NCBI RefSeq assembly: GCF_004797125.1
Contig: NZ_CP038810.1
Span: forward strand, 3,038,001 to 3,102,000
Direction of reading: 5' to 3'
Length of the DNA: 64,000 nt
Source: Flavobacterium sangjuense
GTDB lineage: Bacteria > Bacteroidota > Bacteroidia > Flavobacteriales > Flavobacteriaceae
Shown here: in pieces, positions 23,155-31,542 of the stretch
How positions within the stretch are numbered: position 1 is the stretch's first letter
How the letters are laid out: each line of letters starts with the position of its first letter
Translations under genes and position numbers: made by a program
The notes under the pieces: model-generated
Told to the model about the DNA's origin: nothing
The model's input: the letters and a program-made list of their open reading frames with translations, nothing else
The model's database searches: none

Positions 23155-25527
23155 ATGCGAAAAAAAATAAAAATATTATTTTATTTGCTTTTGATTCCCA
23201 CACTACTATTGGGTCAAAAAAAATACACTCTCAGTGGAACTGTCTTTGAAGATAAAAACAAGGAGACACTCATAGGCGCTTCGCTTTATATTACCGAAAC
23301 CAAAACTTCATTCAGCACCAACGAATATGGCTTCTTCTCTATCACGATTCCGGAAGGAGAATATACTGTCACCATCAGTTATATAGGATATAAAACCGTT
23401 GAGGAGAAAATTATATTAAATCAGGATATCAGAAAAAATATACTGCTTGGCGCAAATAATCAGGTATTAGACGAAGTTGTAGTCGTTGGTTATAAAAAAA
23501 GAGTAGATATCCGAAAACCTGAAATGAGTGTCAACAAACTCACTATCCAGGAAATAAAGGAAATGCCTGTTATCTTTGGTGAAGTAGATATCATAAAATC
23601 TATTTTGACATTACCCGGAGTTACCAATGCCGGTGAAGGGCAATCCGGCTTTAATGTTCGTGGTGGTGGTGCAGACCAAAATCTGATACAGCTCGATGAA
23701 GCTACCATTTACAATTCCTCACATCTTTTTGGTCTTTTTTCGGTATTTAATCCTGATGCGATAAAGGATTTGAAACTCTACAAAGGTGGAATTCCTGCAC
23801 GTTATGGAGGAAGATTATCTTCCATACTTGATATTTATCAGAAAGAAGGAAATAAAAATGATTTTCACGTAAATGGTGGCATTGGTCTAATAACGAGTAG
23901 AATACTTGCTGAAGGTCCAATTGTTAAGGACAAAGGCTCTTTTGTAGTTGCCGGAAGAGGTTCTTATGCGCATCTCTTTTTAAAATTATTCAACAATCCC
24001 AACTCGGCTTATTTTTACGACTTGAATACCAAATTGAGTTATTCGCTAAATGAAAAGAACAATATTTATCTATCAGGCTATTTTGGTCGTGATGTTTTTC
24101 AATTGAGCGACAGTTTCAAGAATACGTATGGAAATGCAGTTCTAAACCTCAGGTGGAATCACCTGTTTTCCGACAAGTTGTTTTCCAATCTTTCGCTGAT
24201 TTACTCTGATTATTATTACGGTCTACAATTAGATTTTGTCGGACTTGATTGGGAAAGCGGCATCAAGAATATTAATTTAAAGTATGATTTCAAGCATTAT
24301 TTAACTGATAAATTTAAACTCAATTACGGCATCCATGGCAATTACTACACTTTTAATCCGGGAACCGTAACTCCGACAGGAAAAGATTCGAGTATCAATC
24401 CGGATCAGCTCGCCAGAAAATATGCTTTTGAATCGGCAATTTACGTTGACGCTGAGCATAAGATTACAGAGAATATAGCCCTTTCCTATGGTTTACGTCT
24501 TAGCTCATTTTTAAGGCTGGGACGCCAAACCATGAATATTTACGAAAACAATCAACCTGTTATTTTTAATCCGGAATTTTCTATTTATCAAAGTGCCGAA
24601 CCCATAGATTCCGTTTATTATCAAAGAAACAAGACTATTGCCAAGTTTGACAATCTGGAACCGCGGTTTGCTATTTCATATGCTATCAATGAAAATCAGT
24701 CTGTCAAAGCAAGCTATAACAGAATGTCCCAGTACCTTCATTTAATTTCAAATACGCAATCACCTACTCCACTTGATGTATGGGCTCCGAGTGATCATTA
24801 CCTCAAACCGCAATTACTCGATCAGGTGGCTTTGGGTTATTATCAGAATTTTAAAAACGATGCATATTCATTGGAAACTGAAACCTTTTTCAAAAAAATA
24901 AAGAACCGGATTGACTATATTGATGGTGCCAATCTGATTGCCAATGAAGCCATAGAAAGAGTAGTGCTCAACGGAAGAGCAAGAGCATACGGCCTTGAAG
25001 TGTTATTCAGAAAAAATGAAGGCAGAGCTACAGGTTGGGTATCCTATACACTTTCAAGAACCGAACAGCAAGTGCCGGGAAGAACACCTGAAGAAACCGG
25101 AATCAACAATGGCCGATGGTATAAAACCGGTTTTGATAAAACGCACAACCTGGCAGTTGTTGGAAATTATAAACTGAATGACAAATGGCGCTTTGGTGCT
25201 AATTTTATCCTACAGACAGGACAGCCTGTTACGTTCCCAAATGGTCAATATGTTTACGAAGGGATCACTGTCCCGAGTTACTCCAGTCGTAACGAAGAGA
25301 ATCTTCCGGCCTACCATCGTCTGGATGTTTCAGCAACATTAACTTCGAGAAAAAACAAAAACCGGAAATGGAAATCAGAATGGGTATTTGGAATATACAA
25401 TATCTACCATCGGCAGAATGCCGCTTCCATCACTTTCAGACAAAATGATGAAACGGCAGCAAATGAAGCCGTTCGGCTGACTATTTTCGGTATTGTACCG
25501 AGCGCAACCTATAATATAAAGTTCTAG
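23155..25527 (+). CDS. TonB-dependent receptor with carboxypeptidase-like N-domain
   Basis: A 790-aa outer-membrane protein: signal peptide (1-20), carboxypeptidase-regulatory-like domain (about 22-105; YTLSGTVFEDKNKETLIGAS), plug with LDEVVVVGYKKR and SGFNVRGGGADQNLIQLDE, and a 22-strand barrel to the terminal aromatic SATYNIKF. It imports an unknown substrate using TonB energy. The DUF4249 lipoprotein gene starts 3 nt after its stop, a standard pairing in Bacteroidota, so the two probably form one surface complex. Confidence 0.93.
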   Translation: MRKKIKILFYLLLIPTLLLGQKKYTLSGTVFEDKNKETLIGASLYITETKTSFSTNEYGFFSITIPEGEYTVTISYIGYKTVEEKIILNQDIRKNILLGANNQVLDEVVVVGYKKRVDIRKPEMSVNKLTIQEIKEMPVIFGEVDIIKSILTLPGVTNAGEGQSGFNVRGGGADQNLIQLDEATIYNSSHLFGLFSVFNPDAIKDLKLYKGGIPARYGGRLSSILDIYQKEGNKNDFHVNGGIGLITSRILAEGPIVKDKGSFVVAGRGSYAHLFLKLFNNPNSAYFYDLNTKLSYSLNEKNNIYLSGYFGRDVFQLSDSFKNTYGNAVLNLRWNHLFSDKLFSNLSLIYSDYYYGLQLDFVGLDWESGIKNINLKYDFKHYLTDKFKLNYGIHGNYYTFNPGTVTPTGKDSSINPDQLARKYAFESAIYVDAEHKITENIALSYGLRLSSFLRLGRQTMNIYENNQPVIFNPEFSIYQSAEPIDSVYYQRNKTIAKFDNLEPRFAISYAINENQSVKASYNRMSQYLHLISNTQSPTPLDVWAPSDHYLKPQLLDQVALGYYQNFKNDAYSLETETFFKKIKNRIDYIDGANLIANEAIERVVLNGRARAYGLEVLFRKNEGRATGWVSYTLSRTEQQVPGRTPEETGINNGRWYKTGFDKTHNLAVVGNYKLNDKWRFGANFILQTGQPVTFPNGQYVYEGITVPSYSSRNEENLPAYHRLDVSATLTSRKNKNRKWKSEWVFGIYNIYHRQNAASITFRQNDETAANEAVRLTIFGIVPSATYNIKF

Positions 25528-25530
25528 ATT

Positions 25531-26346
25531 ATGAAAAAGATAAGCATCCTTCTTTTAACCCTCATTTTCTTTACTTCGTGTGAGAAAGTAATTGATGTTG
25601 GTCTCAATACTGGCGAACCCAGATTAGTTGTAGAAGCATCTATCAGATGGTATGAGGGAACCGATGGCAGCCAACAAAAAATAAGGCTGTCCACTACTAC
25701 GGATTATTTTGCCTCAGAAGTTCCTGCAGTTACCGATGCAGTAGTATTTGTTACTAACAGCAGCGGACAGGTTTTTACATTTATACAAAATGAGCTTCCG
25801 GGAACTTACGAATGCAATGATTTTATTCCGGTGGTGAACGAAAACTATACGTTGACCATTTCTTATCAGGGAGAAACCTATACTGCCACTGACGCCTTAC
25901 TTGATACACCAACAATCACTCGTGTTGAACAAAAAAACGATGCCGGTGCACTTGGCAATGAAACCGAGGTTAAGTTCTTTTTCAATGATATCGTTAATGA
26001 GACCAATCACTACTTTATAAGAATTGACGATCCTTACAAGGTTATTCCTGAATATGGCGTTTTGGAAGACCGTTTTTTTCAAAACAATGAAATGTTTGCA
26101 TTGTATTATAGTGAAGATCTAAAGCCCGGTGATACGCTCAAGTGTACACTAAACGGCGTGACACTGAACTATTACAATTATATGAATGTCTTATTAATGC
26201 AGACAGGCACTAACAATATGGGGCCATTTTCGACTCCGCCTTCAACGGTTAGAGGTAATGTGGTAAATCAAACCAATTTTGACAATTTTGCCTTAGGCTA
26301 TTTCAGGCTGAGTAAAACTTCTGTAAACGAATATATCATTCAATAA
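25531..26346 (+). CDS. DUF4249 surface lipoprotein
   Basis: A 271-aa lipoprotein: signal ending FFTSC (Cys about 17), followed by EKVIDVGLNTGEPRLVVEAS, the DUF4249 opening. The body is beta-rich (VTDAVVFVTNSSGQV, YTLTISYQGETYTA, FFFNDIVNETNHYF). DUF4249 proteins accompany TonB receptors and may act as a lid or capture subunit, by analogy with SusD; that role is inferred. Co-transcribed with the preceding receptor. Confidence 0.9.
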   Translation: MKKISILLLTLIFFTSCEKVIDVGLNTGEPRLVVEASIRWYEGTDGSQQKIRLSTTTDYFASEVPAVTDAVVFVTNSSGQVFTFIQNELPGTYECNDFIPVVNENYTLTISYQGETYTATDALLDTPTITRVEQKNDAGALGNETEVKFFFNDIVNETNHYFIRIDDPYKVIPEYGVLEDRFFQNNEMFALYYSEDLKPGDTLKCTLNGVTLNYYNYMNVLLMQTGTNNMGPFSTPPSTVRGNVVNQTNFDNFALGYFRLSKTSVNEYIIQ

Positions 26347-28075: not shown

Positions 28076-28653
28076 GTAATCCAAAAATCGAAATCCTAAA
28101 AAATGAAATCCTTTCGGATAATTGGTACACACTCCGAAAAGTAACCTACAACTATCTCAAAAAAGATGGCCAATGGGAAACACAATCACGGGAAGCCTAT
28201 GACAGAGGAAATGGCGCCACGATTTTGCTGTATAATAAAAATACAAAAACAATTATCCTGACCCGTCAATTCAGATTACCAACCTATTTAAACGGCAATG
28301 AAACCGGAATGCTGATTGAAGCCTGCGCTGGTTTATTGGATAAAGACAACGCCGAAGAATGCATTCGCAGAGAAACCGAAGAAGAAACCGGCTATAAAAT
28401 TTCATCAGTTGAAAAAATATTTGAAGTTTATATGTCACCTGGTTCGGTAACAGAAATTGTCCACTTTTTTACTGCTGAATATACCAAAGACATGAAAATC
28501 AATGATGGCGGTGGCGTTGCTGATGAGCAGGAAAATATTGAAGTGTTAGAACTTGATTTTGATAAAGCTTATGACATGATAGCATCAGGAGAAATCAAGG
28601 ATGCGAAGACAATTATGTTGTTGCAGCATGCAAAAATTAATTTATGCTGGTAG
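28072..28653 (+). CDS. Nudix hydrolase, NudK-like (GDP-mannose pyrophosphatase)
   Basis: A 193-aa protein with a complete Nudix box ([20 protein letters not shown], then GY) at about 84-105. Other parts ([44 protein letters not shown]) match the ADP-ribose/GDP-mannose pyrophosphatase branch, closest to NudK. It hydrolyses a nucleoside-diphosphate sugar; the exact substrate cannot be told from sequence. Translationally coupled to rlmF. Confidence 0.88.
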
Positions 28654-28753
28654 GGTAAATGTGGTGCAAAAATGTTTTCAGTGTAATTAATCAAGCATTA
28701 CATATACAATTCAAATTTAACCACTTTTTATTCTGTATTAATTCATAACTGCC

Positions 28754-29176
28754 ATGAAACGTATTTTAACTCTTTTCCTTTTGTGTGTATCCATTTGCAC
28801 TTATTCTCAGGAAGCAAACACACTGCAAAATTCATTTTCAAAAGCCAAACAGGAACATAAAAAAGTATTGTTCTTCTTTTCCGGATCCGACTGGTGTTCC
28901 CCTTGCGTAAAATTTAAAAGAAGTTACATCGATTCAGAAGCTTTTAAAGATTTCTCAGCTTCAAATCTTATTGTCTTTAATGCTGATTTTCCGAGACAGA
29001 AAAAAAATGCCTTATCCAAAGAACAAACTTCAGAAAACGAAAAATTAGCCGAAAAATATAACCCAAACGGGTTGTTTCCGTTAATCATTTTATTTGACGA
29101 AAACGGAAAAATAATCCGTAAATGGGAAGAATTACCACAAGAAACAGTTGCTGAATTCATCAGTAATTTGAAATAA
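28754..29176 (+). CDS. Exported thioredoxin-family protein, first gene of DUF4266/DUF3570 cassette
   Basis: A 140-aa precursor: signal peptide 1-19 (TLFLLCVSICTYSQE) and a thioredoxin-like fold with the active site DWCSPCVKF (C48, C51) and NPNGLFPLIILFDENGK with the cis-Pro at the FP pair. Predicted to work as a thiol oxidoreductase in the periplasm. It lies 10 nt before apbE, and the four genes to 31542 are tightly packed on one strand, so it is probably part of one redox module. Confidence 0.88.
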   Translation: MKRILTLFLLCVSICTYSQEANTLQNSFSKAKQEHKKVLFFFSGSDWCSPCVKFKRSYIDSEAFKDFSASNLIVFNADFPRQKKNALSKEQTSENEKLAEKYNPNGLFPLIILFDENGKIIRKWEELPQETVAEFISNLK

Positions 29177-29186
29177 TCAGATAGTT

Positions 29187-30107
29187 ATGCAACTCAAAAA
29201 GCAAACCCGATTAATGGGAAATCAATTTGAATTCACATTGATAGAGCAAAACGAAATCATTGCTCAGGAACTTTTTGAAATTGCCATTGAAGAAATCAGA
29301 AGAATAGAAGCTTTACTGACGACATTTTCAGAAAAAAGCGTAACATACACTATAAACCAAAATGCCGGAATTCAGCCTGTGGCAGTAACCGAAGAAGTTT
29401 TTCAGTTGATAAAAAGAAGCCAGTTTATTTCTAAAATCACGCAAGGTGCATTTGATTTGAGTTATGGCAGCATTGATAAACGATTTTGGAATTTTGATTT
29501 GAATATGACTTCATTGCCTGATGCTGAAACTGCCAAAAAATCGGTTGCGCTGATTAATTACGAGAACATCCTATTGGATGAAAATAATCAAACCGTATTT
29601 TTAAAAAACAAAGGTATGAGGATAGGTTTTGGTGGAATTGGAAAAGGATATGCGGCCGAAATGGCAAAGAAAAAACTATTAGAAAATAACGTTCTAAGCG
29701 GAATTGTAAATGCTTCCGGAGATTTATCTGCCTGGGGTTATCAGGAAAATGGCGAACCTTGGACCATTGGCGTTGCCGATCCAAATCAGAAAAAATCACT
29801 TTTTTCTACGTTCAAAATAACCAACAAAGCTGTGGCAACTTCAGGTAATTACGAGAAGTTTGTGCTTATTGACAACAAACGATATTCGCATACCATTGAC
29901 CCCAAAACAGGTTTTCCTGTTTCGGGTATAAAGAGTGTTACCATTATAGCAGAAAATGCCGAAATCGCAGATGCACTGGCAACTCCTGTAACGGTTATGG
30001 GAATTGCTGTTGGAATGGATTTCATCAACCAATTAAAAACCATAGGCTGTATCATTATTGATGATAATGACAAAACCTATTTTTCTAAAAACATTACTAT
30101 TTCCTAA
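29187..30107 (+). CDS. ApbE-family FAD:protein FMN transferase
   Basis: A 306-aa member of the ApbE family, which attaches FMN from FAD to a Thr or Ser of a target protein. Conserved blocks: TQGAFDLSYGSIDKRFWNF (about 86-104), GFGGIGKGYAAE (about 148-157), GIVNASGDLSAWG (172-184), YSHTIDPKTGFPVSG (233-247) and ADALATPVTVMG. Unlike most ApbE proteins there is no signal peptide; an in-frame TGA at 29169 leaves ATG 29187 as the only usable start. It is therefore predicted to be cytoplasmic, although its neighbours are exported. Confidence 0.93.
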   Translation: MQLKKQTRLMGNQFEFTLIEQNEIIAQELFEIAIEEIRRIEALLTTFSEKSVTYTINQNAGIQPVAVTEEVFQLIKRSQFISKITQGAFDLSYGSIDKRFWNFDLNMTSLPDAETAKKSVALINYENILLDENNQTVFLKNKGMRIGFGGIGKGYAAEMAKKKLLENNVLSGIVNASGDLSAWGYQENGEPWTIGVADPNQKKSLFSTFKITNKAVATSGNYEKFVLIDNKRYSHTIDPKTGFPVSGIKSVTIIAENAEIADALATPVTVMGIAVGMDFINQLKTIGCIIIDDNDKTYFSKNITIS

Positions 30108-30117
30108 ATAAATAATT

Positions 30118-30327
30118 ATGAAGAAGTTTCTTTTAATCCTTATCCTAACCTATTCTCTTTCTTCCTGCGAATCGGTTAAAGAATACCAGAAAGCAAAAAT
30201 TAATGATGCCGAAATGGTATTGACTTCCAAAAAAACCGAAAAATTCGAAAACACTTTTCAACTCTACAGAGAAGGCAGTTCGGGTGCCAATGGTGGCAAA
30301 ACCGGTGGCGGTTGTGGTTGTAATTAA
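30118..30327 (+). CDS. DUF4266 lipoprotein with Gly/Cys-rich tail
   Basis: A 69-aa precursor: hydrophobic signal 3-14, lipobox LSSC (Cys17), short helix KEYQKAKINDAEMVL, then REGSSGANGGKTGGG ending CGCN. The mature part is only about 52 residues. The tail has two Cys (66, 68), suited to metal binding or a disulphide, and the SSGAN stretch loosely recalls the GAT-type flavinylation site but has Asn where Thr would be modified. It starts 10 nt after apbE and ends 12 nt before the DUF3570 gene. Function unknown. Confidence 0.85.
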   Translation: MKKFLLILILTYSLSSCESVKEYQKAKINDAEMVLTSKKTEKFENTFQLYREGSSGANGGKTGGGCGCN

Positions 30328-30339
30328 TAATTTGAACGA

Positions 30340-31542
30340 ATGAAAAAAAGAGTAATTTCAGCAGCAGTTCTTGCACTAATGTTTTCTTTTCAGGCTAAAG
30401 CCCAAAATGATACAATCGCAACAAACTATAAAAAACAAAAACTGAAAATTGAAGAAATCAATTTCATTTCGAGTTACTACACACAAGATGGCGACAATTC
30501 GGCCGTAACTGGTGGCGTTGGAACTGAAAAATTGACTGATATCGCAACTAACCTTGAAGTCATTTTATCTAAAAAAGATAAAAAGAATAACATTCACAGT
30601 TTTGACCTTAATCTTGGTGTTGACAGTTATACTTCGGCTTCATCAGATAAAATTGACCCAAGTTCCGTTTCATCAGCTTCTTATCAGGACGTTAGGGTTT
30701 ATCCTTCTGCCGATTATAATTATACCAATGTGGAAAAGAATTATGGCTTGCATGCCGGTGTTTCTTTCTCTGCCGAGTTTGATTATACTTCAATTGGTGC
30801 CAACATCGGATTTACAAAAACTTCTAAAGACAAAAATCGGGAGTTTTCAGTCAAGGGAATGGCATTTTTTGATACCTGGAAAGTAATCCTGCCCATTGAG
30901 CTGAGGGACGATCCATCAGATAACGAAGCCAATCATTTGGACACAAAGCCGAGGACTTCCTATAATTTAGGATTGACTTTATCTCAGGTTATTAATAAGA
31001 AATTCCAAATTGCACTGCTAGCAGATCTTGGCTATCAGGAAGGATTATTGGCAACCAAATTCAATAGGGTTTACTTTGATGATTTGAGTGTAAATTCGGA
31101 AAAATTGCCTTCAACCCGTATTAAAATTCCGGTTGGCTTAAGAGCAAATTACTTTTTAAATGATCGAATTATTCTGCGTACTTTTTACAGATACTATTAT
31201 GACAATTGGGGAATTAATTCTCATACAATTAGTTTGGAACCAAGCATTAAATTAACCGCTTTTTCTTCCTTGTCATTGCCATATCGTTTTTATGCTCAAA
31301 GTGAAGCCAAATATTTTAAGCCAATCAATCAGCATCAGGCAATTGATGAGTTTTACACCAGCGATTATGATTTGTCTAAATTCAGTAGTAACATGATTGG
31401 ATTAGGCTATCATTTAACCGATAGTGATAAAGGTATTTTTAATATAAAACGAATACATAGCCTGGAATTGCGATATGGTTATTACACCCGAAATAATGGT
31501 CTGGATTCGCACATCATTACGTTAGCATTGCAGTTTAAGTAG
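30340..31542 (+). CDS. DUF3570 outer-membrane beta-barrel-like protein
   Basis: A 400-aa precursor with signal peptide (1-21, ending SFQAKA). The mature N-terminus carries the family signature DGDNSAVTGGVGTEKL (50-65), DSYTSASSDKID (95-106) and SSASYQDVRVYPS (111-123); the rest alternates hydrophobic and polar residues with aromatic girdles and ends in the aromatic-rich strand ALQFK, as an outer-membrane barrel would. Last gene of the thioredoxin-ApbE-DUF4266-DUF3570 cassette. Function unknown. Confidence 0.88.
   Translation: MKKRVISAAVLALMFSFQAKAQNDTIATNYKKQKLKIEEINFISSYYTQDGDNSAVTGGVGTEKLTDIATNLEVILSKKDKKNNIHSFDLNLGVDSYTSASSDKIDPSSVSSASYQDVRVYPSADYNYTNVEKNYGLHAGVSFSAEFDYTSIGANIGFTKTSKDKNREFSVKGMAFFDTWKVILPIELRDDPSDNEANHLDTKPRTSYNLGLTLSQVINKKFQIALLADLGYQEGLLATKFNRVYFDDLSVNSEKLPSTRIKIPVGLRANYFLNDRIILRTFYRYYYDNWGINSHTISLEPSIKLTAFSSLSLPYRFYAQSEAKYFKPINQHQAIDEFYTSDYDLSKFSSNMIGLGYHLTDSDKGIFNIKRIHSLELRYGYYTRNNGLDSHIITLALQFK

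Follow-up and report, generated by a model that had tools for sequence, protein, structure and literature searches.

The closest described relative of the gene cluster analysed here is the 'DsbD' flavinylation system of Meheust et al. 2021 (PMC8238504), the only paper naming DUF4266 or DUF3570 that was found in the open-licence literature. The part of that paper available to us describes 285 DsbD clusters, with DUF3570 in 227, DUF4266 in 221 and a thioredoxin-like gene in 183, as well as 316 clusters that combine ApbE, DUF3570, DUF4266 and a thioredoxin without DsbD. The target motif of ApbE, a transferase of flavin mononucleotide (FMN) from flavin adenine dinucleotide (FAD) to protein, is termed '[S/T]GA[S/T]-like', and DUF3570 of Chlorobium luteolum is flavinylated by its own ApbE at two [S/T]GA[S/T] sites. 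The CXC of DUF4266 was suggested to redox-cycle, and a hybrid thiol/flavin electron transfer was proposed. The locus compared with it here is found in a 64,000 nucleotide (nt) stretch of Flavobacterium sangjuense (contig NZ_CP038810.1, positions 3,038,001 to 3,102,000), referred to as the window, and consists of four adjacent genes for a thioredoxin-like protein, ApbE, DUF4266 and DUF3570. It is a DsbD-type system, since ApbE, DUF3570, a thioredoxin-like protein (PF13899) and DUF4266 are encoded in one cluster, and neither the cassette nor its main substrate is new. However, the window locus has no adjacent DsbD, its DUF3570 carries TSAS and SSAS in the homologous positions rather than two [S/T]GA[S/T] motifs, its ApbE is without a signal peptide, and the flavin-bearing loop is predicted on the outer side, a point on which the available part of PMC8238504 is silent. 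A cytosolic ApbE, a Ser-variant motif and an outer-side flavin loop would be the new elements, as supported by sequence and structure prediction.

We favour, with a probability of roughly 0.55, a reading in which this locus encodes an outer-membrane electron relay of the DsbD type, running from thiol to flavin. This is supported by the match in composition with the published clusters, a flavinylated DUF3570 homologue, a single ApbE in a genome with no FMN_bind, DUF2271 or NqrB/RnfD, conserved serines in DUF3570, the distribution and phylogeny of ApbE proteins without a signal peptide, the barrel model, the conservation of the Cys-Gly-Cys (CGC) terminus, and one DsbD in the genome.

The four genes are all on the + strand and are separated by 10, 10 and 12 nt. 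This packing had been noted in a preliminary description made from the sequence alone, together with an exported CSPC thioredoxin, an ApbE, a lipoprotein ending in CGCN and an exported DUF3570 protein, and the coordinates, the Pfam matches and our own reading of the sequence agree with it (Table 1). Its proposal that the four belong together is borne out by a survey of the neighbours of DUF4266, in which they are regularly adjacent. The genus was represented by 61 genomes, and the same 39 of them encode DUF4266 and DUF3570, each of these (39/39) with an ApbE somewhere; of 296 phylum genomes, 83 have DUF4266 and 86 have DUF3570, and the 83 are all among the 86 (lists compared by eye). The order thioredoxin-ApbE-DUF4266-DUF3570 was seen in 32 of the 40 phylum loci, defined by DUF4266 matches outside Chlorobiaceae (counted by eye; one is a thioredoxin-ApbE fusion). 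The 80 named loci, which are the best of 581 found by DUF3570 similarity, include DUF4266 in 80, ApbE in 78 and thioredoxin in 79, and the stretch for the one locus with no thioredoxin ends at a contig end. The four-gene grouping is not due to chance. The name Chlorobiaceae is used for a family in which the FMO protein was found in 5/5 of the genomes tested. Two loci, L112 and L136, have no ApbE between thioredoxin and DUF4266, and ApbE is present elsewhere in both genomes; in one of these two, the N-terminus of that ApbE was read and has no signal peptide. A tandem pair of DUF3570 genes lies within one cassette (L144:6001-8430), and three Chlorobiaceae stretches (L173, L165 and L167) have multiple DUF3570 and/or DUF4266 genes.

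The genome is a single contig of 3.13 Mb with one ApbE, one DUF4266 and one DUF3570. The earlier observation that none of the usual flavinylated targets is found in the window holds genome-wide for three families, as FMN_bind, DUF2271 and NqrB/RnfD gave no match anywhere in the genome; the search did not extend to Flavodoxin_4 or FMN_red substrates. FMN_bind was detected in 8 of the 61 genus genomes and ApbE in 53; the cassette, FMN_bind or both accompany ApbE in 42 of these 53, which leaves 11 without either. One of the 11, represented by L191, has PepSY and DUF2271 around ApbE. The preliminary description had also suggested that the target of ApbE might lie inside the cassette, which could mature or reduce the lipoprotein. 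The first part of this stands, but the carrier indicated by the flavinylated C. luteolum homologue (PMC8238504) is the DUF3570 barrel. DUF4266 was ruled out as the flavin carrier, as an acceptor motif of the form [S/T][G/S/A]A[S/T] occurs in the last 45 residues of 0 of 173 proteins (155 distinct). Since DUF3570 is flavinylated in C. luteolum and DUF4266 has no acceptor motif, the lipoprotein is more likely a thiol partner than a flavin carrier. By analogy with the tested Chlorobium homologue, the cassette would thus be a flavin-linked envelope redox module with DUF3570 as the ApbE target. The missing signal peptide of ApbE, the changed acceptor motif and the predicted location of the flavin sites did not figure in the preliminary description.

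Site 1 of DUF3570 is [S/T]SAS in 80/80 named loci, with an Asp ahead of it in 79/80, and site 2 is [S/T]SAS in 75/80; the final Ser is present at both sites in all 80. The 25 DUF3570 proteins from 20 Chlorobiaceae loci have [S/T]GAS at site 1 in every case and SGAS at site 2 in 16. Among 40 other DUF3570 proteins of the phylum, site 1 is [S/T]SAS in 35 and site 2 is [S/T]GAS in 11. The change from Gly to Ser in the acceptor motif is therefore a stable lineage variant. At the same motif position in another substrate, replacement of Gly by Ala cut flavinylation to about half (PMC12052999, as far as available). Side-by-side reading, without a statistic, revealed no simple link between signal peptide and site 2 motif that holds across Chlorobiaceae, the clade without signal peptides and the others.

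The window ApbE matches the ApbE profile (PF02424) and aligns with FmnB 7esa over TSGxYE, HxxDPKTG and the Asp of DALAT, and its catalytic residues were matched by eye to the FmnB triad named in the accessible text of PMC12052999. It has no signal peptide or lipobox, and the ApbE domain starts within the first dozen residues. Signal peptides here and in relatives were called as a hydrophobic stretch before the ApbE domain in the longest reading frame, using a simple hydropathy rule and not SignalP. On this basis, the cassette ApbE has no signal peptide in the window, in 20 of the 38 phylum loci with ApbE, in 15/15 Chlorobiaceae loci with ApbE (20 were fetched and 5 show no ApbE in the stretch), and in 78 of the 79 frames that come from 78 named loci. 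Only the L142 frame lies above the cut, and it is over-extended, with the usual domain start further on. The ApbE frame of L130 ends at the contig end and the ApbE gene of L134 is broken in two; these three are the exceptions to a domain motif positioned 8-30 residues past the first start codon, as it is in the window and in 75/78 named loci. Non-cassette ApbE proteins of the same genus have a signal peptide in 19 of 20 picked, the exception being the divergent L193. In a tree of 95 rows, the proteins without a signal peptide comprise a clade of 41 (support 100/99), a Chlorobiaceae clade of 15, L051 and L193. Three changes of signal-peptide state are needed, three remain when the long-branched L193 is left out, and the well-supported branches force three, but L051 and its neighbour L065 are long-branched, which makes that one change less sure. 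One genome (G257; L042 and L043) contains both cassette types, with and without a signal peptide on ApbE.

The absence of a signal peptide predicts that flavin attachment occurs in the cytosol before export, and ApbE, judged from its sequence, seems to act there before the barrel is exported. The flavin-modified chain would then have to pass through Sec; a 2011 study of conjugated preproteins reportedly bears on the Sec passage of modified chains. The C. luteolum ApbE/DUF3570 pair was expressed in E. coli after cloning akin to that of constructs with truncated signal peptides, and DUF3570 was mostly pelleted and still flavinylated (PMC8238504), so cytosolic flavinylation of such a chain is possible. 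In the available part of the same paper no discussion of the location of the cassette ApbE was found, and in the open-licence literature, as far as its text was accessible, cytosolic ApbEs were found only with cytosolic or fused substrates and none with an exported one.

AlphaFold models DUF3570, which has no cysteines, as a 16-strand barrel (strand count by eye) with a predicted local distance difference test score (pLDDT) of 87.4 and a predicted template modelling score (pTM) of 0.80. The features of an outer-membrane barrel are present in the prediction, namely a signal peptide (by eye), a closed even-stranded barrel and an aromatic residue near the C-terminus. By sequence, no relative was found in the PDB up to E 1. 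Among the 50 Foldseek matches listed, PDB barrels align end to end with the model at TM-scores of 0.28-0.45 by query length, and at scores this low the nearest solved barrel is uninformative on function. Both acceptor sites are in one loop on the long-loop side of the model, which is presumably extracellular, and 69 of the 78 highly conserved columns, those of at least 3 bits, are on that side (p = 6e-5 over all positions and 0.007 when only strand positions are counted). On this model the flavins seem to end up on the outer cell face.

On the thiol side, DUF4266 ends in CGC followed by N, G or AK in 172/173 proteins (155 distinct), the exception being the broken gene of L134. The thioredoxin has CxPC in 112/113 counted, the members from named loci having been picked by the pattern GSDWCxxC. 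Its nearest NCBIfam models are DsbH, TsoB and DsbD, all below their cut-offs and the nearest, DsbH, far below, and the single PDB sequence match is 2ju5. One DsbD_TM protein, of 666 amino acids (aa), is encoded in the genome (C1:2652470).

In the mechanism we propose, a cytosolic ApbE, so placed by its missing signal peptide, would take FMN from FAD and attach it to the precursor of DUF3570 at S101 and S114. The precursor would be exported by Sec and is predicted to fold in the outer membrane into a 16-strand barrel whose outer-side loop bears both flavins. DsbD, encoded elsewhere, would take electrons from cytosolic thioredoxin and pass them to the exported one with CSPC, which would reduce the terminal CGC of DUF4266, and the flexible tail would hand electrons to the DUF3570 flavins. 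The flavins may in turn reduce an acceptor, conceivably ferric iron, located on the cell surface or beyond it, though this last step is speculative. Conservation and chemistry are the grounds on which we infer the relay from thioredoxin through CGC to FMN, which agrees with the 2021 suggestion; which way electrons flow, what the CGC tail does and which acceptor is used are inferred too. A more specific version is put forward tentatively, at somewhat less than even odds: a cytosolic ApbE would attach two FMNs covalently to the barrel precursor ahead of its export by Sec, and a lipoprotein dithiol would feed the flavins at the surface of these Bacteroidota, forming a cytochrome-free conduit for electrons at the outer membrane.

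Several observations weigh against this reading. DsbD is ∼415 kb from the cassette. The assignment of an extracellular side rests on a topology rule, the flavin loop is modelled with low local confidence, and flavins on the outer side leave the access of a periplasmic dithiol unexplained. When DUF4266 and DUF3570 were modelled by AlphaFold as a read-through pseudo-fusion, the DUF4266 tail had a pLDDT <50 and showed no sign of docking; threading of the tail through the barrel, tried with the same construct, was neither supported nor excluded by a disordered tail. The window DUF3570 departs from the published motif at the Gly of both sites, site 2 is without the Asp, and no flavin measurement on such a Ser-variant motif was found in the literature examined, as far as it was available. 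The compartment of ApbE is also not fixed for the system, as ApbE carries a signal peptide at 18 of the 38 phylum loci that encode it, and a natural thioredoxin-ApbE fusion with one signal peptide, L065:6500-7930, adjoins DUF4266 and DUF3570 and would place ApbE outside the cytosol.

The last two observations favour an ordinary DsbD-type system, in which an unrecognised route takes ApbE out to the periplasm, where it modifies DUF3570 as in the relatives with a signal peptide. We consider this unlikely for the window, though worth retaining, because the position of the domain motif in the window and 75 named loci leaves no room for a signal peptide, or the residues before it show none. A programmed frameshift joining ApbE to the exported thioredoxin was ruled out, as frame offsets of 1, 2 and 0 between the two genes all occur among loci (determined by hand). 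That the signal-less ApbE instead modifies a cytosolic protein and is unrelated to its neighbours is very improbable. Known cytosolic ApbEs do modify cytosolic or fused fumarate reductases (PMC12052999, available part), but the genome-wide lack of the three target families searched, the co-occurrence with DUF3570 and the conserved acceptor serines argue for a substrate in the cassette.

Flow in the reverse direction, with the set acting as a thiol oxidase, is improbable. The DUF3570 flavins would oxidise the CGC dithiol and reduce oxygen or a quinone, and the thioredoxin would make disulphides, as in Erv2/Ero1/QSOX; a mobile C-terminal Cys-x-Cys beside a flavin recalls the disulphide shuttle of Erv2p. 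The cassette is, however, kept in Chlorobiaceae, generally regarded as anaerobes, and the nearest models of the thioredoxin are those named above. The published clusters carry DsbD, a reductive donor (PMC8238504, available part). A role in metal handling, with metal bound by the CGC of DUF4266 and the flavin barrel reducing metals at the surface to serve uptake or efflux, is also unlikely, at about the level of a periplasmic ApbE, and is compatible with the favoured relay as its acceptor step. It draws on a family with a VIT1 transporter, which occurs within the flanks fetched for 80 named loci in 21 cases, on RND, cation-ATPase and Haem_bd families in the flanks of 11-12 of 80 each (Pfam was checked on one member of each flank family, and RND by eye only), and on VIT1 in 25 published clusters (PMC8238504, available part). 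Yet the fetched flanks of 59/80 named loci are without the VIT1 family, and no such gene was recognised by eye among the window open reading frames of 24-37 kb.

Other described systems share single features with this relay. The cytosolic ApbE/fumarate reductase pair of Klebsiella pneumoniae likewise has an ApbE without a signal peptide that acts in the cytosol, but its substrate is a soluble cytosolic enzyme (PMC12052999, available part), whereas that of the window would be an exported outer-membrane barrel. The PepSY/DUF2271 system of L191, from the same genus, also pairs ApbE with a dedicated substrate other than FMN_bind, but its ApbE has a signal peptide and its neighbour is a PepSY-flavodoxin reductase. 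As in the porin-cytochrome conduits MtrCAB, the window barrel would move electrons across the outer membrane, though with flavins and a dithiol instead of haems; no CxxCH was seen by eye in the four cassette proteins, the rest of the genome not having been searched for cytochromes. The Erv2/Ero1 thiol oxidases share the mobile Cys-x-Cys beside a flavin, but the FMN of the window system would be covalently bound to a barrel and the direction is probably opposite. No Erv/Ero FAD domain was matched in Pfam at E 0.001 among the four proteins.

If the proposed order is correct, covalent flavin attachment in the cytosol followed by Sec export would be feasible, and it would solve the supply of FAD to ApbE in these bacteria, with no periplasmic FAD needed. 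Many Bacteroidota, together with the Chlorobiaceae, would have a haem-free electron path to the cell surface. The ApbE target motif would widen to [S/T]SA[S/T], and motif searches could find missed substrates.

Table 1. Position and basis of features assigned to the thioredoxin-ApbE-DUF4266-DUF3570 cassette (nucleotide positions in the window)
Feature	Position	Strand	Basis
Exported thioredoxin-like protein, 140 aa	28754..29176	+	Pfam Thioredoxin_7 8.4e-10
Thioredoxin signal peptide	about residues 1-18		by eye
Thioredoxin active site C48-S-P-C51	28895-28906	+	read from sequence
ApbE FAD:protein FMN transferase, 306 aa	29187..30107	+	Pfam ApbE 2.5e-75
DUF4266 (PF14086) lipoprotein, 69 aa	30118..30327	+	Pfam 1.3e-18; one predicted helix, Gly-rich tail
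DUF4266 lipobox LSSC, Cys17	30166-30168	+	read from sequence
DUF4266 terminal Cys-Gly-Cys (protein end CGCN)	30313..30321	+	conserved among relatives
DUF3570, 400 aa, predicted 16-strand outer-membrane beta-barrel	30340..31542	+	Pfam 3.1e-35
DUF3570 signal peptide, cleavage AKA/Q			by eye
Predicted flavinylation site 1, T98-S-A-S101, Asp95 ahead	30631..30642	+	conserved in relatives
Predicted flavinylation site 2, S111-S-A-S114, without Asp	30670..30681	+	conserved in relatives
Predicted DUF3570 loop, residues 98-116, strands 3/4, both sites inside	30631..30687	+	AlphaFold secondary structure and usual outer-membrane-protein topology

The cassette is flanked by a Nudix gene upstream and uvrB downstream (uvrB assigned by eye). 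No Bacteroidetes-type consensus promoter was found upstream of the thioredoxin gene in 28601-28760. A 130-aa protein with no Pfam match (L121:3733-4125) belongs to a family whose members precede the cassette in 20 of the 80 named loci, and many of these 20 are from Chryseobacterium. Further upstream in the window, 23155-26346 encodes an outer-membrane receptor of the TonB-plug/carboxypeptidase-regulatory-like type followed by a lipoprotein-like protein without a Pfam match. Among the 80 named loci, relatives of the receptor lie upstream of the cassette in 7 and relatives of the lipoprotein-like protein in 6.

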